Part shown: positions 4,073 to 28,538 of the stretch, one piece after another
Layout of the letters: every line of letters begins with the position of its first letter
Numbering within the stretch: the stretch's first letter is position 1
DNA from: Clostridium massiliamazoniense
Lineage (GTDB): Bacteria > Bacillota > Clostridia > Clostridiales > Clostridiaceae
Assembly (NCBI RefSeq): GCF_001403635.1
Contig: NZ_LN879468.1
Location: forward strand, 1,581,501 to 1,645,500
DNA length: 64,000 nucleotides
Direction of reading: 5' to 3'
Made by a program: the position numbers and the translations under genes
Notes under the pieces: generated by a model
Told to the model about the DNA's origin: nothing
Seen by the model: the letters and a program-made list of their open reading frames with translations, nothing else
Database searches by the model: none

Positions 4073-4651
4073 ATGGACAATTTAGCTAGCATTTCATCAA
4101 AAAACTTTATTATCGAAGCAGGAAAATCTATAAGAAAAGTAAGACATGAAAAAGGGTTAAGCTTAGAAGAACTTTCAAATGAAATAAATGTAAGTAGATT
4201 AACATTATCAAAAATAGAAAAAGGAGAAGCAAATCCAACTATAAATATTATGTGGAAAATTTGCGAAGCTTTATCAATACCTTTTGCACAATTATTTGAC
4301 GTAAATGAAGATATTAAATTATCAAGAGCTAATGATAGTGTAGGAATAGAAAGTGATGATAAATCTTTTAGAATAGAATTAATTTTTAGAGAAGACTCTT
4401 CTACCACTACAGAATTTTATAGAACTTATTTGTCTAAGGGTGGAGTAATGTTCACAGAGGAACACAACAGAGGCACTGTAGAAATAGCAACAGTTATGAA
4501 AGGAGAAATCTCTATAAATATAGGAGATGAGGAATTTATCCTAAAAGAATATGATTCCTTAAAATTTAAGGCAGATAGAAAACATTCATATAAAAATTTA
4601 AATGACGATGAATCAGTAATTCATATGTCTGTAATATATAAAATGATTTAA
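4073..4651 (+). CDS. XRE-family regulator with C-terminal cupin domain
   Basis: A 192-residue transcription factor. Residues 12-70 form an XRE helix-turn-helix (IRKVRHEKGLSLEELSNEIN, SRLTLSKIEKGEANPT), and the C-terminal half is a small cupin barrel (MKGEISINIGDEEFILKEYD, DRKHSYKN) likely to sense a small ligand. A GTG at 4064 lies in frame but is inside the Shine-Dalgarno AAAGGTGAG, so the ATG at 4073 is chosen. The gene is followed by its own hairpin and then by an efflux gene with tandem repeats at its promoter, a layout suggesting this regulator controls that exporter; this is inference. The effector is unknown. Confidence 0.9.
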   Translation: MDNLASISSKNFIIEAGKSIRKVRHEKGLSLEELSNEINVSRLTLSKIEKGEANPTINIMWKICEALSIPFAQLFDVNEDIKLSRANDSVGIESDDKSFRIELIFREDSSTTTEFYRTYLSKGGVMFTEEHNRGTVEIATVMKGEISINIGDEEFILKEYDSLKFKADRKHSYKNLNDDESVIHMSVIYKMI

Positions 4652-4668
4652 TAAAATACTTTGTTCTA

Positions 4669-4708
4669 TAAAGAGGATGTATCAAATTACAGATACATCC
4701 TCTTTAAA
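4669..4708 (+). terminator. Terminator of the GGATGTATC family
   Basis: Perfect stem AAAGAGGATGTATC / GATACATCCTCTTT with an AAATTACA-type loop, right after the XRE-cupin gene. The trailing U-tract is short (TTTAAATTT). Confidence 0.82.
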
Positions 4709-4774
4709 TTTACAGTTTTTTTAGATGCTTTGGCTGTTGTTGTTGAATTAATTTTATATTTTTTGATATTTTAC

Positions 4775-4803
4775 TTTACATTTTTAACTTTTAAGTATAT
4801 TAT
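4775..4803 (+). promoter_or_regulatory. Probable promoter of the efflux gene
   Basis: TTTACA (4775-4780), 17 bp, TATTAT (4798-4803). An overlapping TATAAT at 4801-4806 is an alternative -10 with a 20-bp spacer. The repeats that follow begin exactly at the -10 end. Confidence 0.5.
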
Positions 4804-4853
4804 AATATACATAAGGTAACTTAAATATACATAAGGTAAACTTTAATATACAC
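4804..4853 (+). promoter_or_regulatory. Tandem operator-like direct repeats
   Basis: AATATACATAAGGTAA occurs at 4804 and again at 4824, with a degenerate third unit AATATACAC at 4845. The 20-21 bp period is two helical turns, so a protein could bind all units on one face. The position, overlapping and just after the -10, is typical of a repressor site. Confidence 0.65.
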
Positions 4854-4894
4854 AAATCGGATTTAAATAAATAAAAAACAAAGGAGGAATTTAT

Positions 4895-5839
4895 ATGGCT
4901 GCAATACTTATAGGACTTATATCATCATTATTCTTTTCAGCCACTTTTTTAGTTACTAAATTAATGGGGGTAGATGGAACTAGCTGGGCATGGACAGCTG
5001 CACTTAGATTTATGTTAGCATTACCTTTTTTATTTTTAGTAGTATTAGCAAAAAGTAATTTTAAAAGTTTATTTTCATCAATGAAAAAACATTTTTGGGC
5101 TTGGTTTTTATGGGGAAATTTAGCTGGAGTAGGATTTTACTTCTTCTTAAGTTTTGCCTCACTATTTGCACCTGCATGGCTTGTAGCTGCATCATGGCAA
5201 TTAACTATTGTTGCAGGGTTACTTCTTTCACCATTATTTTATACTGTTATAGATACTCCAAATGGTAAAAAGAAAGTTAGAGGGAAGATTCCTGTAAATA
5301 GATTGATAATTTCATTATTTATATTATTAGGTGTAGCATTAATGCAAATTAACGCTGCTGGTAGTATTAGTATTAAGAGCTTACTTTTAGGATTTATTCC
5401 AGTTGCTATATCAACATTTTTATATCCTTTAGGAAATAGAAAGTTAATGGATGTTTGTGCTGGCGAAGTAGATAGTTTCCAAAGATCATTTGGAGTATCT
5501 TTAGTAAGTATGCCTTTATGTATTATATTGTCTTTCTATGGTTATGCACAATCAGGCATTCCTACTAGTAATCAATTTATACAAGCTATAATATTAGCTC
5601 TATGTTCTGGAGTAATTGCTACTATTACATTCTTTTATGCTACAGATAAAGCTAAACACAATTTATCTTTATTAGCAGCAGTAGAATCAACACAGTCAGC
5701 AATAATAATATTTACTATAATAGGATCAATGATATTACTACATACTTCTTATCCAAAAGGCTTATCTTTAGTAGGAGTTATTATAATTACCATTGGAATA
5801 TTTGTAAATGCATTAGTAAAAGATAAAAAAAAGGTTTAA
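4895..5839 (+). CDS. EamA/EmrE-type multidrug efflux transporter
   Basis: A 314-residue polytopic membrane protein with about ten hydrophobic segments and almost no soluble part. The N-terminus AAILIGLISSLFFSATFLV and the conserved W-rich segment WAWFLWGNLAGVGFYFF match the putative multidrug-resistance efflux branch of the drug/metabolite transporter superfamily. A strong AAAGGAGG precedes the ATG. The substrate cannot be read from sequence. Tandem repeats over the promoter and an XRE-cupin gene immediately upstream suggest inducible control. It ends at a long bidirectional hairpin. Confidence 0.85.
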   Translation: MAAILIGLISSLFFSATFLVTKLMGVDGTSWAWTAALRFMLALPFLFLVVLAKSNFKSLFSSMKKHFWAWFLWGNLAGVGFYFFLSFASLFAPAWLVAASWQLTIVAGLLLSPLFYTVIDTPNGKKKVRGKIPVNRLIISLFILLGVALMQINAAGSISIKSLLLGFIPVAISTFLYPLGNRKLMDVCAGEVDSFQRSFGVSLVSMPLCIILSFYGYAQSGIPTSNQFIQAIILALCSGVIATITFFYATDKAKHNLSLLAAVESTQSAIIIFTIIGSMILLHTSYPKGLSLVGVIIITIGIFVNALVKDKKKV

Positions 5840-5905
5840 GGAATTAAGTATTATAGGAATATAATTACCCTTTCTTATATATCAAAACTTAATAATTTAA
5901 ACTAA

Positions 5906-5958
5906 AAAAGTAAACCACTTTTAGAGAATTATATTCAATAAAAGTGGTTTACTTTTTA
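5906..5958. terminator. Strong bidirectional terminator
   Basis: A 17-bp perfect stem, AAGTAAACCACTTTTA pairing with TAAAAGTGGTTTACTT, with A-run and T-run flanks, between the convergent efflux and hydrogenase genes. Confidence 0.93.
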
Positions 5959-5975
5959 TATTATTTTTTTATTAA

Positions 5976-7709
5976 TTAATGTTTTTTTCCATAATGGATG
6001 TGTAAAAGCTCATGAGCTTTACTTCCACCTGGTTCACCCATATATGTTTCGTACATTTTTAATAAGGCTTTATTTTGATGTGATTTTCTCTTCTCTAAAA
6101 CTTTAGCATCTTGATTATATAAAACAGAAGCTCTTATTTTTCTTATATCCATAGTAGCTCTATCATCTGCTTTAACATGTGGTTGTCCACCACCATTTAC
6201 ACAGCCTCCATTACAAGCCATTACCTCAATGAAATGATATCCCTCATTTATTTTTCCTGACTTCATAAATTCAAATAAAGCTGCTGACCCGTTTACTACT
6301 GCAACCTTATATTCTGCGCCACCAATTTCAACTGTGGCTTCTTTTATTCCATCAATTCCTCTTACTGCTGTATAATCAACATTTTCAAGGTCTTTTCCTT
6401 CAACAAAATCTTTAGCAGTTCTTAATGCAGCTTCCATAACTCCACCAGTTGCTCCAAATATAGCACCAGCACCAGTATGTTCTCCCATCGCTGGATCTAC
6501 TTCACCATCTTCTAGATTTACAAAATCTATTTTATTTTTCTTTATAAGTCTTGCTAATTCTCTTGTTGTTAAAACTGCATCTATTTCTCTTAATCCATTA
6601 AACTCCATGCCTTCTCTAGCTATTTCATATTTCTTAGCTATACATGGCATAATTGTTACAGTAAATATTGATTTTGGATCTAATCCTGTTATATGTGGAT
6701 AATAAGTTTTACTTGCAGCACCAAATTCTTGTTGTGGTGACTTAGCAGATGATAAATTATTAAGAATTTCTGGATAATAATTTTCAGCAAGTCTTACCCA
6801 ACCTGGACAACATGAAGTAAACATAGGGAATGGTCCACCAGCCTTCACTCTTTCAAGGAACTCTGTTGTTTCTTCCATTATTGTCATATCAGCTCCAAAG
6901 TTTATATCAAAAACTTTATCGAAACCTAATTCTCTAAAAGCTGTATATAACTTTCCTGTTGTATCTACTCCGTAGCCCATATTAAACAATTCACCCATAG
7001 CAGTTCTTACTGATGGTGCCATAGCTACTATTACATGTTTATTAGGATCATTTAACGCTTCTTCTACTCTTTCAACATGTGATTTTTCTTGAAGAGCATT
7101 AACTGGACATGCTACTAGACACTGTCCACATAAAATACATCCAATTTCATCAAATACTTGTCCATCTTTAGGTCCTACATATCTATTTCCATTTTCATCT
7201 CTATAGAATTTTATAGATTGTGTTGTTGTTTTAGTTCTACAAGCTGCAACACATCTACCACATGTAACACATTTTGATCTATCTATAATTAAAGATTCGC
7301 TTCTATCATCTATTAGTTCACTCTTATCTTGTGGTAAGAAAGGTTTATGCGCTCTAGCTTTTGTTTTTATTACAAGCTTTAAAAACTCACAGTTTTCTTT
7401 TCTATTACATTGTCCACATTTAAACTCATGCTTGTCTAATAATGCTGAAACACATTCTTTTATTTCATTTGTTACTCTTTCAGTATTAGTTCTTACTATC
7501 ATTCCATCTTTAGCCTTAATTGCACAGGATCTAGCAAGTCTATCTTGTCCCTCTATTTCAACTAAACAAACTCCACATTGAGCTAAGTTGTTACAATCCT
7601 CCAAAAAACAAAGTGTAGGTATTTCTATGCCATTTTCTTTTGCTAATTTAAGAATAGATGGCACTCCCTCGAATTCAATTATCTTATCATTAATTGTAAT
7701 TTTACTCAT
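5976..7709 (-). CDS. hydA: [FeFe] hydrogenase, CpI-like
   Basis: Reduces protons with electrons from ferredoxin, disposing of excess reductant as H2 during fermentation. Domain order: plant-type [2Fe-2S] (C34, C45, C48, C62), the His-Cys3 [4Fe-4S] motif HEFKCGQCNRKENC, two [4Fe-4S] motifs (CVTCGRCVAAC, CILCGQCLVACP), then the H-cluster domain with TSCCPGW, MPCIAKKYE and ACNGGCVNGGGQP, and the C-terminal SSU-like helix. The 577 residues are close to the 574 of C. pasteurianum CpI. The residue before GGC in the third motif is Asn where CpI has His. GGAGGG precedes the ATG. It stands alone in a fermentation cluster with buk and ptb. The maturation genes hydE/F/G are not in the window. Confidence 0.97.
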   Translation of the reverse strand: MSKITINDKIIEFEGVPSILKLAKENGIEIPTLCFLEDCNNLAQCGVCLVEIEGQDRLARSCAIKAKDGMIVRTNTERVTNEIKECVSALLDKHEFKCGQCNRKENCEFLKLVIKTKARAHKPFLPQDKSELIDDRSESLIIDRSKCVTCGRCVAACRTKTTTQSIKFYRDENGNRYVGPKDGQVFDEIGCILCGQCLVACPVNALQEKSHVERVEEALNDPNKHVIVAMAPSVRTAMGELFNMGYGVDTTGKLYTAFRELGFDKVFDINFGADMTIMEETTEFLERVKAGGPFPMFTSCCPGWVRLAENYYPEILNNLSSAKSPQQEFGAASKTYYPHITGLDPKSIFTVTIMPCIAKKYEIAREGMEFNGLREIDAVLTTRELARLIKKNKIDFVNLEDGEVDPAMGEHTGAGAIFGATGGVMEAALRTAKDFVEGKDLENVDYTAVRGIDGIKEATVEIGGAEYKVAVVNGSAALFEFMKSGKINEGYHFIEVMACNGGCVNGGGQPHVKADDRATMDIRKIRASVLYNQDAKVLEKRKSHQNKALLKMYETYMGEPGGSKAHELLHIHYGKKH

Positions 7710-7985
7710 GTTTTCCCTCCAACTATATACTTATCCCCAGTTATTAAAATCTAATTCTATTTTATTTTAACATACTTTTAATTATTTTTTTAGAAATTAA
7801 TTAATTGTGTAAAACATTTACTACTTTACTACTTTTTTTGAATAACAACTATAAATATTACATAAAAATTAATATTTTTTATTAACTTTGTAATTATATT
7901 AATTATAAAATTATTTAAAATTCAAATCAAAATTTAATTTAGGCAAAATAAAGGTTTTAACTAAATCCTTAATAAAAATTTCCTA

Positions 7986-9056
7986 TTAAGCATAAACCTT
8001 AGCTTCTTCTTTTTTATTTAATACTCGTAAAGTCCCTTGAGCTAAAGCTAGCATTTCATCTTCTCCTGGATATACTGTTATTGGTGCTATCCATCCTGTC
8101 ATTTCTTTTATTTTATCTACTATTAATTTTCCATAAGCTATACCACCAGTTAGAATAATTGAATCTACTTTTCCCTGTAAAGTAACAGCTCTTTCTCCAA
8201 TTGCCTTTGCAACTTGATAAACAAAAGCATCTTGAATATCTATATATTCTTTTACCCCTTCAATATACTTTCCTTCTACTATTCTTGCATCATTAGTATT
8301 TAAGTACGCAACATATCCGCCTTTTCCAACTATTTTTGAATATATTTCTTTTTCTTCATATTTGCCACTATAACATAATCTTATTAAATCCCCTACAGGT
8401 ACTCCACCTGATCTTTCTGGTGAAAATGGTCCTTCTCCATCTAAGGCATTATTAACATCAACAACTCTTCCACCTTTGTGTGCTCCAACAGAAACACCAC
8501 CGCCCATGTGAACTACTATTAAATTTACATCTTCATATTTTTTTCCCTTTTCCATAGCATATCTTTTAGCAACAGCTTTCTGGTTTAATGCATGAAACTT
8601 ACTCTTTCTTGGTAATTCAGGTACTCCAGAAATTCTTGCAACACTATCAAGTTCATCAACTACAACAGGATCTACTATATAAGCCTTCACATTTACTGAA
8701 CTAGCTATATCACTTGCTAATATTCCACCTAAATTTGAGGCATGTTCACCTTGAACTCCAACCTCTAAATCTTCTATCATAAGATCATTAACTTCATAAG
8801 TACCACCTTCCATAGGCTTAAGCATTCCACCTCTACCTACTACAGCATTTAAAGAATTTATATCAAAGTTTTTCTCTTTTAATATATTTAATATTATTTC
8901 CTTTCTGAATCCTAATTGATCTGAAACAGTTTTATATTTTTGTATTTCTGTTGTTTCATGTCTCAAAGTTTCTGTTAAAAGCTCCTTTTCATCTTCAAAA
9001 ATAGAAATTTTAGTTGAAGTAGAACCTGGATTTATAATTAATAATTTATGTGCCAT
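7986..9056 (-). CDS. buk: Butyrate kinase
   Basis: Converts butyryl phosphate plus ADP to butyrate plus ATP, the last step of the butyrate pathway. It is an ASKHA-fold acetokinase: NPGSTSTKI near the N-terminus is the phosphate-binding loop, [13 protein letters not shown] the second nucleotide motif and [12 protein letters not shown] the adenosine motif. About 356 residues is normal. The frame begins with a TTG at 9062, but the ATG at 9056 has AGGGGGA at better spacing. It follows ptb with about a 40-bp gap, forming the classical ptb-buk operon. Confidence 0.97.
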
Positions 9057-18575: not shown

Positions 18576-19805
18576 CTATTCACTTTCTAAAATACTTTTT
18601 ATGTTGTTGTTATTATAAATAGAATCATTAAATTTATATTGCAATTTCTCAGCATATTTTTTACTTTCAGAAATATTCCTATCTTTATTTAATATTGCTA
18701 ATTTATATAACACCTCCTCTAAATATTCGCTTTCTTTAAAATTCTTTTCATAATCGCTATAATATTTTATAGCATTGTCTTTGTCATCTAACTTTTCAAA
18801 ACTTACAGCAATCATATAATTTAAATGATTTTCCAAATAACTACCTTTTGCGTATTTGAATCCCTTTTGAAATTCTTTATTAGCTTTCCCAAATTCTCCG
18901 TTTTTAAATTCATTTAATCCTTCATCGTAAAAATATTTTACTCCCTTTGTTTCTAATAGTTCCTTTGCTAGTTCAAACTCCTTTTGATTTTCTTCTGTAA
19001 TACTCTCTCTATTTTTCTCCATAGCTACAATTAATTCATCATAATTTTCTTTTTCAATTAATTCTTTTAAATTATATTTTTTCTTTTCTTCACTATCTTT
19101 ACTATTAGTTTCTTCATTATTTTTATTGTCATTTTTATTTCTTTCATCATTTTGTGAAATTACACTTTGTGGCTTTTTACTTTCTGTATTTTTCTTAAAG
19201 TTCGCACTATTTGAAAGCATTAAAGCACCACCTATTACAACAAGACCTATAGCTATAGATCCTGCTAAAGCTACTTTTTTATTTATTATATTGCTAAAAC
19301 CTCTTCCTTTAAGACCTAGCTCATTAATATAATCATTTGCTACTTTATTGTTTCTTTCAACTGATATAACCTTTTCTATACATTCTTTTGCTTTTTCTTT
19401 ATCACCTAGCTTTATATAACAATAAGTTAATGCATTATACACATTAATAGCATTAAAATCACTTTCTTTAGCACTTTCTAAAAGTACTACTGCTTCATCT
19501 AAATTAAAATCTTTAATTTTCTTTAATGCTTTTGTATATAATTTCTCTCTAAGCAAATCATCCTTGATATTATCTAAATAAGACTTAGCTATACCATCAT
19601 TATTTATATTCACATTAACTTTCCAACTTGCCTGTGCTGCATGTAAATTACCCTTTAAATAGAGAATCATTCCCTTAAGGTTCAAAGCAGCTTTATTATT
19701 TATATCTAAAGCTACAGCTTCTTCACAATATTCTAAAGCTTTCTCAATATTTCCTACTTGAAATTTTTCTACTGCCTTATTGTAGTTTTTCATAGAATTA
19801 TTCAT
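18576..19805 (-). CDS. TPR protein with central membrane helix
   Basis: 409 residues. The N-terminal part (about 1-170) holds tetratricopeptide repeats (KAVEKFQVGNIEKALEYCEE; KAALNLKGMILYLKGN; NAINVYNALTYCYIKLGDKE). One transmembrane helix follows at about 180-198 (ALAGSIAIGLVVIGGALML), then a low-complexity Asn/Lys/Ser/Glu linker and more TPR-like repeats (KGFKYAKGSYLENHLNYMIA; KDNAIKYYSDYEKNFKES). Topology is probably cytoplasmic N-terminus and outside C-terminus. GGGGGAT precedes the ATG. No enzyme motif is visible; such proteins are scaffolds. It shares a unit with iadA. Confidence 0.8.
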   Translation of the reverse strand: MNNSMKNYNKAVEKFQVGNIEKALEYCEEAVALDINNKAALNLKGMILYLKGNLHAAQASWKVNVNINNDGIAKSYLDNIKDDLLREKLYTKALKKIKDFNLDEAVVLLESAKESDFNAINVYNALTYCYIKLGDKEKAKECIEKVISVERNNKVANDYINELGLKGRGFSNIINKKVALAGSIAIGLVVIGGALMLSNSANFKKNTESKKPQSVISQNDERNKNDNKNNEETNSKDSEEKKKYNLKELIEKENYDELIVAMEKNRESITEENQKEFELAKELLETKGVKYFYDEGLNEFKNGEFGKANKEFQKGFKYAKGSYLENHLNYMIAVSFEKLDDKDNAIKYYSDYEKNFKESEYLEEVLYKLAILNKDRNISESKKYAEKLQYKFNDSIYNNNNIKSILESE

Positions 19806-22940: not shown

Positions 22941-24560
22941 TTATTCTTGTTCCATTATTATTTTCTTAGCTGTTAATATTGAGCTTGCACTCATTGAGAA
23001 TTCGTCTAATCCATATTCTACTAATGTTGGTATAGCTGCTTCATCTCCAGCCATTTCTCCACACATTCCTACCCATTTACCATGTTTATGTGCTCCATCT
23101 ATTGTCATTTTTATTAATCTTAATACAGCTGGATGCATTGGATTATATAAGTATGATACTTTTTCACTCATTCTATCTGCAGCTAATGTATATTGAATTA
23201 AGTCATTTGTTCCTATTGAGAAGAAATCTACATGTTTAGCTAATTCATCAGCATAAACTGCTGCTGCTGGGATTTCTACCATGATACCCCATTGAATATC
23301 TTCTGAGTAAGAAATTCCTTCAGCTTTTAATTCAGCTTTACACTCTTCAACTACTTCTTTAGCTTGGTTGAATTCTTCTAAACCTGATATCATTGGGAAC
23401 ATTACTGCTAATTTACCATATACAGATGCTCTTAATAAAGCTCTTAATTGAACCTTAAATATTTCTTTTCTATCTAAGCAAAGTCTTATTGCTCTATATC
23501 CTAAAAATGGGTTCATCTCTTCTGGTAATGGTAAGTATGGAAGAGTTTTATCTCCACCAATATCTAATGTTCTTATTACTACTTGCTTTCCTTCTGTTTT
23601 TTCTAAAACATATTTATAAGCATTGAACTGCTCGTCCTCTGTTGGAGCTGAATCTCTATCCATGTATAGAAACTCAGTTCTAAATAATCCTACACCATCT
23701 CCACCATTTTGCATAACTTGGTCAACATCTTCTGGTTTACCAATGTTTCCACAAACCTCTACTCTTTTACCTGATTTAGTAGTTGTTTTAACAGTTATTA
23801 ATTTCTTTAATTCCTCTTGCTCAGCTTGGAATTTTTCTTTTTTAGCTTTGTATTCATTAACAACTTCTTCTGAAGGATTTACTATAGCAATTCCTTCTAT
23901 ACCATCAACGATTACTAAATCACCATCTTTAACTGATTCAGTTATATTTCCAAGCCCAACTATTGCTGGTATTTCTAATGTTCTTGCCATTATAGCTGAA
24001 TGTGAAGTTCTTCCCCCTATATTAGTTAAGAAAGCAACAACTTTGCTTCTATCTAATTGTGCTGTATCTGATGGAGTTAAATCATGTGCTACTACTATTG
24101 TATTTTCTGGAGCATTTTCAAATGGATTAACAGCTTTACCAGCTAAGTTAGCTATTATTCTATTTGACACATCCTTTATATCAGCTGCTCTTTCTCTCAT
24201 ATAATCGTTATCCATTGATTCAAATATCATAACAAAAGTGCTTTTTGTATTTTCAACTGCTTTCATAGCATTTAATTGCTCATTTTCTATAGCTAAAGTC
24301 ATTGCCCCCGCAAATTCTGGATCATCTAATAATGTTAAGTGAGCTTCAAATACTTCTGCCTCTTCTGCTCCCATTTCTTTTGCTGCTTTTTCTTTAATTG
24401 CAACTAATTGAGTTTTTGAAGCTTCTAAAGCTGCATCTAATTTAGCCTTTTCAGCTTCTATATCTGTAATTTTTTCATCACTTATTACTATCTCTTCATG
24501 TTTTTGTAGTAATACTGTTCCTATTGAATATCCTTTTGATGCTGCTATACCTTTTAACAT
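22941..24560 (-). CDS. ptsI: PTS enzyme I
   Basis: Phosphoenolpyruvate-protein phosphotransferase, which starts the phosphorelay PEP to EI to HPr for sugar uptake. The active-site His is H187 in GGRTSHSAIMARTLEIPAIVG; the C-terminal PEP-binding domain shows GVGLFRTEFLYMDR, RTLDIGGDKTLPY, FSIGTNDLIQY and the catalytic GMCGEMAGD. 539 residues is slightly shorter than many EI proteins but complete. AAGGAGG precedes the ATG. It stands alone, with no ptsH beside it; instead a regulator with an HPr-like domain is divergent upstream. Confidence 0.97.
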   Translation of the reverse strand: MLKGIAASKGYSIGTVLLQKHEEIVISDEKITDIEAEKAKLDAALEASKTQLVAIKEKAAKEMGAEEAEVFEAHLTLLDDPEFAGAMTLAIENEQLNAMKAVENTKSTFVMIFESMDNDYMRERAADIKDVSNRIIANLAGKAVNPFENAPENTIVVAHDLTPSDTAQLDRSKVVAFLTNIGGRTSHSAIMARTLEIPAIVGLGNITESVKDGDLVIVDGIEGIAIVNPSEEVVNEYKAKKEKFQAEQEELKKLITVKTTTKSGKRVEVCGNIGKPEDVDQVMQNGGDGVGLFRTEFLYMDRDSAPTEDEQFNAYKYVLEKTEGKQVVIRTLDIGGDKTLPYLPLPEEMNPFLGYRAIRLCLDRKEIFKVQLRALLRASVYGKLAVMFPMISGLEEFNQAKEVVEECKAELKAEGISYSEDIQWGIMVEIPAAAVYADELAKHVDFFSIGTNDLIQYTLAADRMSEKVSYLYNPMHPAVLRLIKMTIDGAHKHGKWVGMCGEMAGDEAAIPTLVEYGLDEFSMSASSILTAKKIIMEQE

Positions 24561-25014
24561 ATGTATATCCTCCTTAAATTCAAACCTTAATCTTAAATTA
24601 ATATCATACTTTTCTTAAACCTAAAGTAATCAAAATTTTACACTGTAAATCTATAATATATATTTAAAGCAATTTATATGCCATTTACTAAAAAATATAC
24701 TTCTTTCCTTTACTCTCTAAATTCTTATGATTTCTTCAAGAAATTTATGTTATTTTTTAAGATTAATTCCTAATTTTTTCACCAATTTCTATTATATAAT
24801 GATTTATTAAAGTAAAAATATGAAATTTAGATTATTATCAATTTATTAACAATATTTTTTATACTCTATAATTTGATTAAAAGTAAAATAGTTGATAAAA
24901 TTTATTATATAAAGTGTATTTTCGATACTTTTTATCAATTCTTTCTTTTATAATTTAATTTAATGTACTTTTCTTGATATTTTTTATCAAATATTTATTA
25001 AAGGAGAGCTATAT
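24561..25014. promoter_or_regulatory. ptsI / sigma-54 activator intergenic region with inverted repeats
   Basis: About 450 bp of very AT-rich DNA between divergent genes. TTGATA-N5-TATCAA lies at 24974-24990, just before the regulator's Shine-Dalgarno. A wider pair TTGATAAA (24892) ... TTTATCAA (24931-24938) encloses AAAGTGTAT/ATACTTT. A TATAAT at 24949 lies between them. These look like binding sites for the regulator itself. I see no -24/-12 sigma-54 promoter. Confidence 0.5.
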
Positions 25015-27021
25015 ATGTATTATGAAGATATAAAAATAACTGTTGATTCTGGCTTACACACTAGATATTCAGCAATGCTTGTAAATAAAGCTTCTGAAAT
25101 TTCTTATAAATATAAAGTAAAATTTTATATAAAAAAAGCTAATTATACTGATTGGCTCGAAATAAGTATGCTTGGTCTTTTAGCCTTAAAAGTTGCTAAA
25201 GATGAAATTCTTACTATAGGTACTGAAAATGTAGGTATGATAGGAAAACTTTCTATTAATCTTTTAATCGACTATATAAATAATAATATAAATAATTCAA
25301 CTGAACCTATGGAAGCCATAGATGATTTTATTGAAGAAAATAGTTTAGCCAATGAACAACTCTTTGATGTTTTACCTATTGGTGTTATAGCTATAGATTT
25401 AAATTCTAGCATAACTAAAGTAAATAAATATGCTTTACAAATTTTAAACTTACCAGAAGAAAAAGTATTGGGAAATAATATACGAAATATAATTCCTAAT
25501 ACAGAACTTCCTGACTTGCTAAAAACTCAAATTAAAGAAATAGGAAAAATTTTATATATAGGTAATAGAACAACCATCGTTAATAGAAGTCCACTCTATC
25601 ATAATGGTGACTTAATTGGAGCTACAGCTGTAATACAAGATATATCTCAAATGGTAGGATTAAAAGAGCTAAATGAAAAGTTCACAAGAATATTAGAAAA
25701 TTCTAGTGAATTAATTTGTTTTATTGATGAATATGGCAAAATAAACTACATAAACCCAGCCTATGAAAAACACTTTAAAAGTTCATGTAAAAATATTATT
25801 GGAAAAGATATTTTCTCAATTTCTCCAAAGGGCTATAGAGCCAAAGCCTTTACTGAGAAAAAAACTATAAATAATGTAATCCATAATAAAGAAGGTATAG
25901 ATATTATAACAAAAGTAGTTCCTATATTTGTTGATAATAAATTTAAAGGAGTTATTTCAACCTCAAAACCAATAAATGAATTAAAAAAAGTAATAGCTCA
26001 ACTTGAAAAGTCTCGTGAAGAATTAAAATATTACAAAGATGAATTCTTTAGAAATATCTCTTCACTTTCCTCTTTTTCAAATATAATAGGCTATAATAGT
26101 GGTTTAAAAGATGCTATTTATATATGTGAGAAAGCTTCACAAAGTACTTCCACTGTTCTAATTCGTGGCGAAAGTGGAACTGGTAAAGAACTTATTGCAA
26201 AGGCTATACATAATAATAGTGCTAGAAAAAACAAACCCTTTGTTAAAGTTAACTGTGCAGCCATTCCAGAAAATTTATTAGAAAGTGAACTTTTTGGTTA
26301 TGAAAAGGGAGCTTTCACTGGGGCTATAAAATCTAAACCTGGTAAATTTGTTATAGCTAATGGAGGTACAATTTTTCTTGATGAAATAGGTGATATGCCT
26401 ATGTCCATGCAAGTTAAGTTACTTAGGGTTATTCAAGAACGTGAAGTAGAAAGTATAGGTGCTATAAAACCTCAAAAAATTGATGTTAGAATTATAGCTG
26501 CCACTAATAGAGATTTAGAAAAAATGATGTCTTCAGGAGAATTTAGAGAGGACTTATATTATAGACTAAATGTTCTATCAGTATCACTACCTCCTCTTCG
26601 TCATAGAAAAGAAGATATAAATTCACTTACAGAACACTTTATAGAAAAAATAAATAATAAACTTAATAAATCAGTTAAATCTATAGATAAAAAATCTTTA
26701 AAAGCCTTACAAAACTATGAATGGCCAGGAAATATAAGAGAATTAGAAAATATAATAGAGAGGGCTATAAACCTTTGTGATAGTGATGTAATAACTCTCT
26801 TAGATTTACCATCATACTTAAATACTAATAATGACTTAACAGAAACAACCTTTGAAATTGATGAAAACAATATACTAACTTTTGAAGAGTATGAAAAGAA
26901 AATAATAGAAACAGCTCTAAGAAAATATAAGAGCTTTAATAAAACAGGCCAGGCATTAGGTCTAACCCATAGAACCATCTCACTAAAATGTAAAAAGTAT
27001 GGTATAGAAGTTCAAAAATAG
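25015..27021 (+). CDS. Sigma-54-dependent activator with N-terminal HPr-like domain
   Basis: 668 residues. Residues 1-90 resemble the phosphocarrier HPr: [16 protein letters not shown] places a His at position 15 and Arg at 17, as in HPr, and [16 protein letters not shown] matches the HPr regulatory-serine helix. Two PAS domains follow (about 115-215 and 225-330), then the AAA+ domain with GESGTGKE (385-392), GAFTGA (432-437, the sigma-54 contact loop), IFLDEIGDM, and a C-terminal Fis-type helix-turn-helix ([20 protein letters not shown]). It is divergent from ptsI. I infer that EI or HPr phosphorylation state feeds into this activator; target promoters are not visible in the window. Confidence 0.92.
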
Positions 27022-27087: not shown

Positions 27088-27422
27088 CTGCCAAGATAGC
27101 TATATAGGTACAAAATGCTGTGACCATTGAACTAGTACTAGAAGCTCTTTATTTTTGAACAACAGTTTCGTAAGTGACTATCTAAATCTTGATTTAGTTA
27201 TAGGAACTTACTCAGCAAGCAATGCGAGTCGAGTTTCCTTTTAAAAGAAGCTCAGTGCTAAACGAACTGAGTAACTTCTAGTTACCAAATCACAGATTTG
27301 GACTATCAGTTAAACAAAATGAGTTTGGAAATTTCAGAAACTGTTGTAGAAAAAATATTAGAGCTTTTTTACGTAGGTGAGTGGTCACAAATGATGAACC
27401 TATATAGCTAGATAAAAGGCAG
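27088..27422. repeat. 335-bp element with ~80-bp imperfect inverted arms
   Basis: The left arm (27088-27169) and the right arm (27337-27422, reverse complement) share in the same order CTGCC, TAGCTATATAGGT, TGTGACCA, AAGCTCT and ACAACAGTTTC. The roughly 167-bp centre holds more hairpins: CTAAATC/GATTTAG (27182-27197), GAAG-CTCAGT/ACTGAG-CTTC (27247-27278) and CCAAATC/GATTTGG (27285-27301). There is no ORF. It could be a MITE-like mobile element or remnant, or encode a large folded RNA. The right end recurs at 181-229. Confidence 0.75.
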
Positions 27423-27456
27423 AGAGGATGTATCTGTAATTTGATACATCCTCTTT
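27423..27456 (-). terminator. nrdB terminator, GGATGTATC family
   Basis: AGAGGATGTATC / GATACATCCTCT stem about 30 bp past the nrdB stop. Its spacing to the GGCAG end of the element is the same as at 225-262. Confidence 0.75.
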
Positions 27457-27484: not shown

Positions 27485-28519
27485 TTATAAATCATCTACT
27501 AGAGCTGTTGCTTTAGCATAAGCTGTTGATCTAGCTTCAAAGAAATCTGTCTTAACTTGGTTTGCATCTGCATGAACGTCTACCCATGGTGCTGGATTTT
27601 CTGTATGTTCTGGATATAATATTTCAAGACCTATACTTCTTAATCTTAAGTTACCTATATATTTTATATAGTTTTCTATTAAAGTTTTATTCATTCCTTC
27701 TATATTATTACCTATTACATAATGACCCCAAGCAATTTCATTTTCTACTCCAGTCTTAACCATATCTACTAATTCTTTTTCAAATTCTTCAGTGAATATT
27801 TCTGGATTTTCTGTTTTTAACTCAAGTATTATATTTTTAAATAACCATAAATGAGTATTTTCATCTCTATTTATATATCTTATTTCTTGTGCTGAACCTG
27901 GCATTTTTCCGTTTCTCTCTAAGTTATAGAAAAACATAAATCCTGAATAGAAATATACACCCTCTAATATATAGTTTGCCATAACAGCTCTTACAAAGTT
28001 ATGCATTGTTTCATTTTCTAAAAATCTATTATATAAATCACCTATGAATTTATTTCTTCCTAATAGAATTTCATCATCCTTCCATTGGAATAGAATTTCA
28101 TTTCTTTCCTCTGGAGAACATATACTATCTAACATATAGCTGTAACTTTGTGAATGAAGAGCTTCTTGGAAAGCTTGAATAGTTAAGCATAGATTAACTT
28201 CTGATGCTGTTACGTAACTATTTATATTTCCTAAATTAGCTGTTTGTATAGAATCTAAGAATATTAAAAATGATAATATTTTATCATAAGCTGTTTTTTC
28301 ATTTTTAGATAGTTTTTTATAATCCTTTAAATCTTGAGATAAATTAATCTCTTCTGGTATCCAGAAGTTATTCATTGCCTGTCTGTACCAATCAGAAACC
28401 CAAGTATATTTCATATTATTAAAATCATTTAGATTTGTAGTATTACCATTAACTATTCTTTTCTTAGATATTTCTGTATCTCCAAGCTCGTTAAACAAAG
28501 GTTTTTTAGTTATTTCCAT
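27485..28519 (-). CDS. nrdB: Class I ribonucleotide reductase, small (beta) subunit
   Basis: Provides the metal cofactor for reduction of ribonucleotides. Ferritin-like helices carry the ligand set FLDSIQ (Asp), EALHSQSY (Glu, His and the radical Tyr), ILEGVYFY (Glu) and RDENTHLW (Glu, His). The Tyr aligns with E. coli Tyr122, so a tyrosyl-radical type is expected. Of two in-frame ATGs, the one at 28519 has GAGAGG 9 bases upstream; the one at 28528 abuts it. About 344 residues. It follows nrdA by about 19 bases. No nrdI or nrdH is nearby, so class Ia/Ib naming is uncertain. Confidence 0.93.
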   Translation of the reverse strand: MEITKKPLFNELGDTEISKKRIVNGNTTNLNDFNNMKYTWVSDWYRQAMNNFWIPEEINLSQDLKDYKKLSKNEKTAYDKILSFLIFLDSIQTANLGNINSYVTASEVNLCLTIQAFQEALHSQSYSYMLDSICSPEERNEILFQWKDDEILLGRNKFIGDLYNRFLENETMHNFVRAVMANYILEGVYFYSGFMFFYNLERNGKMPGSAQEIRYINRDENTHLWLFKNIILELKTENPEIFTEEFEKELVDMVKTGVENEIAWGHYVIGNNIEGMNKTLIENYIKYIGNLRLRSIGLEILYPEHTENPAPWVDVHADANQVKTDFFEARSTAYAKATALVDDL

Positions 28520-28538
28520 CTTCAACATCCTCTCTTAA

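Follow-up and report, generated by a model that had tools for sequence, protein, structure and literature searches.

An HPr-fronted sigma-54 activator beside ptsI in clostridia: a probable dedicated control loop for enzyme I

In the window, the whole 64 kb stretch of DNA that was analysed, the gene for a sigma-54 activator with an HPr-like front end lies beside ptsI, the gene for enzyme I (EI) of the PTS. This raises the question of what an HPr domain does inside a transcription factor, and whether the neighbouring gene is its target. The answer favoured here, at a probability of roughly three in four, is a dedicated control loop for EI, in which the activator drives ptsI via sigma-54 and its HPr domain serves as the sensor. 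If true, the charge of the PTS would feed back directly on EI levels, by way of an HPr domain inside a transcription factor, and the loop would bear on sugar use in fermenting clostridia. The HPr-activator at ptsI is real, conserved, and more specific than a sequence-only reading of this DNA had held.

The activator and its HPr domain

The gene had been read as a sigma-54 activator with two PAS domains, an AAA+ domain carrying GAFTGA and a C-terminal helix-turn-helix (HTH), and Pfam finds all of these at 25015-27021. Its features, all on the forward strand, are:

25015..27021, +, sigma-54 activator, HPr-PAS-PAS-AAA+-HTH, 668 aa (ORF list and Pfam)
25015..25299, +, HPr domain, residues 1-95 (Pfam PTS-HPr above cut-off, hhalign, invariant positions)
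25057-25059, +, His15 codon, in the HPr domain
25063-25065, +, Arg17 codon, in the HPr domain
25165-25167, +, Ser51 codon, in the HPr domain
25336..25650, +, first PAS domain, about residues 108-212 (Pfam PAS families)
25660..26004, +, second PAS domain, about residues 216-330 (Pfam PAS match at residues 222-289)
26083..26583, +, AAA+ sigma-54 activation domain, residues 357-523 (Sigma54_activat, 246 bits)
26308-26325, +, GAFTGA, residues 432-437
26884..27006, +, helix-turn-helix, residues 624-664 (HTH_50, 42.6 bits, cut-off 27)

A Walker-type motif (GESGTGKE) and GAFTGA are both present and, like the C-terminal HTH and a -24/-12 promoter at the target, are features of a sigma-54 enhancer-binding protein. 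The nearest NCBIfam model, PrdR (NF041552), spans PAS-AAA+-HTH; its match begins at residue 216, past the HPr domain, and the identity was rejected at 499 bits against a cut-off of 795. The LevR type was likewise rejected, with no PRD, EIIA or EIIB domain among the 25 Pfam rows for the activator. The best solved relatives of the first PAS domain are CitA-type cytoplasmic PAS domains.

Relatives were sought with residues 1-211 as the query in a sample of 194 genomes from the family of G001 (Clostridium tagluense, through L005). An earlier contig search with the whole protein had returned at least 80 relatives, mainly via the ATPase part, and was used only to pick a Clostridium genome as the centre. 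Matches at E 0.001 occur in 166 of the 194 genomes, many by the PAS part alone. Among the matches listed, 70 close relatives in 69 genomes form clade A (71 activators with that of the window), and 20 weaker full-length genes form clade B, the two being divided first by identity and then by neighbours. A tree of the domain alone places the clades on two sides of one branch (SH-aLRT 99), and in an order-wide profile search clade-A genes score at least 214 bits and clade-B genes at most 173. When ptsH rows were added to the domain tree, support for clade A was 75, and the tree did not place the two activator groups relative to ptsH (14 ptsH rows, four left out, with the L272 row nearly empty). 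A sample of 391 genomes from the class yielded clade A in four (G051, G022, G077 and G006) and clade-B-like genes in six more. A fused HPr had been called less common than other modes of PTS control, which needs qualifying, as the activator occurs in at least 69 of the 194 family genomes and HPr domains are listed for clostridial activators in the accessible text of PMC6615313.

By three kinds of profile search, residues 1-95 are an HPr domain, as had been proposed. The Pfam PTS-HPr profile matches residues 5-71 at 30.8 bits (cut-off 23), or 34.5 bits when residues 1-107 are searched alone; hhalign aligns the domain with clostridial HPr over 83 columns (probability 96.5, E 7.7e-10); and profile-profile comparison with solved HPr chains gives a best E of 2.2e-9 over positions 1-94. 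The PTS-HPr profile is also matched at E 0.001 in 15/15 relatives examined. The second PAS domain is missing in six clade-A activators (L131, L144, L148, L151, L208 and L210), and each of these retains its HPr domain; the device therefore does not depend on the second PAS.

The acceptor site stands out within this domain. The His15 and Arg17 that had been picked out are found as codons in the DNA, within GLHTR, and the serine described as being of the regulatory type, Ser51, occupies the place of HPr Ser46. Across residues 1-95 of the 71 clade-A activators, for which pairwise identity has a median of 47% and falls as low as 27%, only G13, H15, R17, A20 and S51 never vary. The same site is kept in clade B, with H15 in 20/20, R17 in 19/20 and S51 in 18/20. 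Given an invariant acceptor site on a sigma-54 activator whose neighbour is the enzyme I gene, the natural candidate for the kinase is EI. Compared with HPr, the activator domain has Pro18 replaced and about five extra residues ahead of the serine helix, and phosphotransfer to it may for both reasons differ from that to HPr.

The replacement of Pro18 also lends something to a quite improbable alternative, in which the domain merely docks or dimerises, binding EI or another partner, and His15 goes unphosphorylated in the cell; binding alone could report free EI. Such a role sits poorly with H15 and R17 being kept in 71/71 activators, and H15 in all 20 of the sister group, at domain identities down to 27%. 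A serine input is less probable still: HPr kinase would phosphorylate Ser51 as it does HPr Ser46, reporting glycolytic intermediates, and the invariance of Ser51 (71/71) is in its favour. Yet bacteria that lack HPr kinase, E. coli among them, keep the same serine in their HPr, where it may be structural, and this input would leave H15, R17 and the pairing with EI unexplained. The favoured reading remains EI as the kinase, with His15 as the acceptor.

Among the neighbouring ORFs listed in the window there is no ptsH, as had been remarked. Its absence was dropped as a clue, since a separate short HPr gene lies elsewhere in 14/14 related genomes examined (13 carrying clade A, one lacking it), one in each, and the activator domain is thus not the cell's only HPr. 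According to the accessible text of PMC3024867, clostridial EI and HPr genes are monocistronic and present in one or two copies.

ptsI, its promoter and the shared palindromic sites

The neighbour was correctly named as a divergent ptsI, and the region between the two start codons holds both a promoter and a set of palindromic sites:

22941..24560, -, ptsI, enzyme I of the PTS, probable target, 539 aa (TIGR01417, 718 bits against a cut-off of 341.7; Pfam)
24668..24683, -, sigma-54 promoter TGGCATATAAATTGCT, aimed at ptsI, 107 bp before its start codon, single exact match
24892..24908, no strand, possible activator site, two mismatches (dyad scan)
24922..24938, no strand, probable activator site, one mismatch (dyad scan)
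24974..24990, no strand, probable activator site TTGATATTTTTTATCAA, perfect, the dyad common to 67/67 regions

The two genes are 454 bp apart. The pattern TGGCAY-N5-TTGCW, allowed up to two mismatches, matches at 62 places in the whole 64 kb, of which only that at 24668-24683 (-) is perfect, and an exact box arose in none of 2000 first-order resamplings of the intergenic region. A perfect dyad site arises in 0.05% of 2000 resampled versions of the same region.

This arrangement is conserved throughout clade A. The activator has ptsI as its divergent neighbour in 68 of 71 loci, which is 68/68 where both genes lie on one contig. Of the three loci without an adjoining ptsI, L128 and L193 have the activator close to a contig end, with ptsI absent from the available stretch. 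The third, L157 (G076, 4901-6907), is a second clade-A activator of its genome; it adjoins a gene resembling the TPR gene of the window (18576-19805). In C. acetobutylicum, the neighbour of ptsI is presumably the NtrC-like gene CA_C3088, for which an open-access literature search returned no paper that names it. A sigma-54 box aimed at ptsI is present in 66/68 loci, the window included, exact in 60 and with one mismatch in six; of the remaining loci, L159 has only a two-mismatch box and L158 none. Two additional loci from the order-wide search, L298 and L299, have the same activator-ptsI pair with an exact box, and two and three dyads, respectively.

All dyads with 4-6 base arms and a gap of 0-13 were counted in 67 intergenic regions, L156 being left out for its length, and a single motif was outstanding. 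TGATA-N5-TATCA occurs in 67/67 regions (185 sites), whereas 20 resamplings gave it in 0.1 regions on average; the longer TTGATA-N5-TATCAA occurs in 63/67 (117 sites). Measured over 181 sites, the median distance from the dyad centre to the downstream sigma-54 box is 219 bp. From this comparison, the activator is predicted to bind the TTGATA-N5-TATCAA sites in the shared intergenic region, and the case that it would drive ptsI from the sigma-54 promoter is strong.

Neither element is a general property of ptsI. While 183 of the 194 genomes match ptsI at E 1e-100, in a control set of 40 ptsI genes, hand-chosen from genomes without clade A, a sigma-54 box with at most one mismatch within 800 bp upstream was found in 0/40 (a two-mismatch box in two), and the TGATA-N5-TATCA dyad likewise in 0/40. 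As rpoN is present in 36 of these 40 genomes, the promoter tracks the activator, not the mere presence of sigma-54; among the related genomes with the activator, rpoN is present in 67/69. On the ptsI tree the presence of the activator needs just six changes, so the activator-ptsI cases are not independent; three of these changes are forced by well-supported branches, and a pair test on three pairs cannot reach significance. L148 enters this tree with one part of a split ptsI alone, and its branch is meaningless.

Two loci depart from the usual layout. In L156 (G035, 7331-8725) rpoN is located between the activator gene and ptsI, and the sigma-54 box lies 338 bp before ptsI. In L180 (G037, 4530-6534) a stop breaks the activator gene, which looks like a decaying copy, into two ORFs; the adjoining ptsI has a one-mismatch sigma-54 box.

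It had been suggested that the activator couples PTS flux to a sigma-54 regulon. A sigma-54 target is borne out by the comparison above, whereas a wide regulon is not, with the sole exact box in 64 kb and the dyads both sitting at ptsI. In 20 of the 69 activator genomes, hand-chosen, the perfect dyad occurs 74 times, of which 40 are at ptsI, with at least one per genome. The 34 off-locus occurrences (1.7 per genome) are not above the 60 (3 per genome) of a reversed control pattern, leaving a broad regulon unsupported in these genomes. That ptsI is one among many targets, and its pairing with the activator mere neighbourhood, is accordingly very improbable, given also the 68/68 divergent pairs; in its favour, an exact pattern would miss degenerate sites, and in G034 one off-locus perfect site has an AT-rich spacer like those at ptsI, which could mark a second target. 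From the distribution of sites, ptsI is probably the whole regulon, though the activator may also regulate itself, since dyad sites lie near its own start.

The sister group at dhaKLM and two lineages without sigma-54

In clade B, all 20 activator genes are found upstream of dhaK-dhaL-dhaM, which in the representative L160 match Pfam Dak1, Dak2 and EIIA-man. A sigma-54 box begins 68-227 bp after the activator gene, exact in 15 loci and with one mismatch in five. The recognition helix of clade B differs from that of clade A. In keeping with this, TGATA-N5-TATCA was found in only 2/20 clade-B loci, and the search for a shared site of the dhaKLM group gave no other clear dyad.

The order and class samples added ten further loci, two at ptsI, seven at dha genes and one, L306, at a carbohydrate kinase. 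Of the seven dha loci, a box with at most one mismatch was found in four, and none in the stretches searched of L301, L304 and L305. In L306 (2603-6376), a clade-B-like HPr activator lies beside glycerol kinase-like and glycerol-3-phosphate dehydrogenase-like genes, and an exact sigma-54 box precedes the kinase gene. L301 (497-6972) has the cluster dhaK-dhaL-dhaM-ptsI-activator, in which the dha system has its own copy of ptsI. EI/HPr supply phosphate to dihydroxyacetone kinase, by way of DhaM, and to the glycerol kinase of Gram-positive bacteria. Judged by their neighbours, HPr-fronted activators are thus found at genes belonging to the very phosphorelay that they could sense.

Two clade-A lineages appear to have lost sigma-54. 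G033 and G069 are the only two of the 69 activator genomes without a Sigma54_DBD match (rpoN undetected), and their loci, L158 and L159, are the two that have no good sigma-54 box. GAFTGA or GSFTGA is present in 68 of the 71 clade-A activators; L158 and L159 are the only two in which this loop is replaced, the truncated ORF of L180 having no such domain. Both activators keep the nucleotide-binding motifs, the HTH and His15, and each intergenic region keeps two perfect dyads. These sequences suggest a joint loss of sigma-54, its promoter and the contact loop, with the HPr sensor and the DNA sites retained; this was probably a single event, since L158 and L159 are close to each other. A search of these loci for another ptsI promoter produced no convincing candidate: L158 has a single weak sigma-70-like match on the strand of ptsI, and L159 has none. 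One guess is that the activators now work in the manner of TyrR. The two lineages offer a natural experiment on the rewiring of such an activator.

Taken as a family, HPr-fronted activators may be sensors of phosphoryl demand, each with its own HPr to gauge EI~P and each controlling genes of the EI/HPr phosphorelay (ptsI; dhaKLM; in one case a glycerol kinase-like gene), with a homeostatic EI loop in the ptsI group and, in the lineages without sigma-54, gauge and DNA sites kept while the output moved to another sigma factor. This wider proposal is given even odds.

The proposed circuit and its place among known systems

In the proposed circuit, EI~P, or HPr~P by exchange, would charge His15 of the activator, and the HPr domain would act as a sensor that reports the phosphoryl holdings of the PTS against demand, the charge on His15 gating the AAA+ ring. 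With phosphate drained by PTS sugars, or with EI in short supply, the uncharged domain would let the ring activate ptsI, while the charged domain would hold it back, giving a demand-led supply of EI. The PAS domains may add a signal or act as a relay. In the sister group, the same front end would apply a like logic to dhaKLM and, at one locus, to a glycerol kinase-like gene.

The sign of this circuit, uncharged activating and charged restraining, is only slightly favoured. Such a sign would raise EI upon sugar uptake or lack of EI, and it fits substrate-led induction of dhaKLM. The same circuit with the reverse sign, in which the His15~P domain activates and ptsI rises with plentiful PEP and low PTS flux, as a supply sensor with positive feedback, is a weaker though real contender. 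Nothing in the sequence decides the sign, and LevR can be activated through phosphorylation by HPr; positive feedback on EI, however, suits demand poorly, and the same holds for dhaKLM, where this front end is put to substrate-led use. Precedent for the direction preferred here, and against its reverse, comes from Vibrio vulnificus, where, in the accessible text of PMC9040800, dephospho-IIAGlc activates DctD2. There too a dephosphorylated PTS component switches on a sigma-54-type activator, but the PTS protein is separate and binds, whereas the activator of the window has a built-in HPr domain.

Sigma-54 activators of the LevR/CelR type are also under PTS control. They differ in being phosphorylated on PRD/EII-like domains and in controlling sugar operons; the window activator is without both kinds of domain and stands at the general EI gene.

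Parts of this system have been described before. In the accessible text of Nie, Dong and Yang 2019 (PMC6615313), PTS-HPr (PF00381) is among the regulatory domains of clostridial activators, and Table 1 has the regulon ‘DhaQ: dhaKLM, ptsI’. The dhaKLM group (clade B) is very probably DhaQ. Location at dhaKLM, taken here as a mark of DhaQ, is seen in 20/20 of the sister group; the window activator has ptsI as its neighbour, and the ORFs around it include no dha gene. The ptsI group may have been counted with DhaQ or kept apart from it. A ptsI copy such as that of L301 may explain the table entry. In the accessible text of that paper, ptsI is named in the table only, with the acceptor histidine, the EI loop, the TTGATA site and the variant without sigma-54 undiscussed. 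The HPr tree of Comas et al. 2008 (PMC2405797) has, in the accessible figure legend, the entries ‘cperfrocr’ and ‘cacetrocr’, whose labels suggest RocR-like HPr-domain proteins of C. perfringens and C. acetobutylicum; they are named only, with neither target nor mechanism given there. From the accessible portions of two other papers, C. beijerinckii dhaKLM was predicted to be sigma-54 dependent (Hocq et al. 2019, PMC6510779), and PTS genes are enriched among predicted sigma-54 targets in Clostridia, EI not being named (PMC12316311). As far as these accessible texts go, the architecture is already in print, and possibly the target too. In the open-access literature, with most subscription papers outside its scope, PMC6615313 in its accessible part was the only source found that ties ptsI to sigma-54 in clostridia, and no account was found of the acceptor site, the EI loop or the variant without sigma-54.

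On its far side, the activator gene of the window faces a convergent gene (27485-28528) that reads as the small subunit of ribonucleotide reductase, and a two-way terminator-like hairpin lies between them at 27421-27456. At the gathering score, no Rfam family matches the longer inverted repeats found at 27119-27389.
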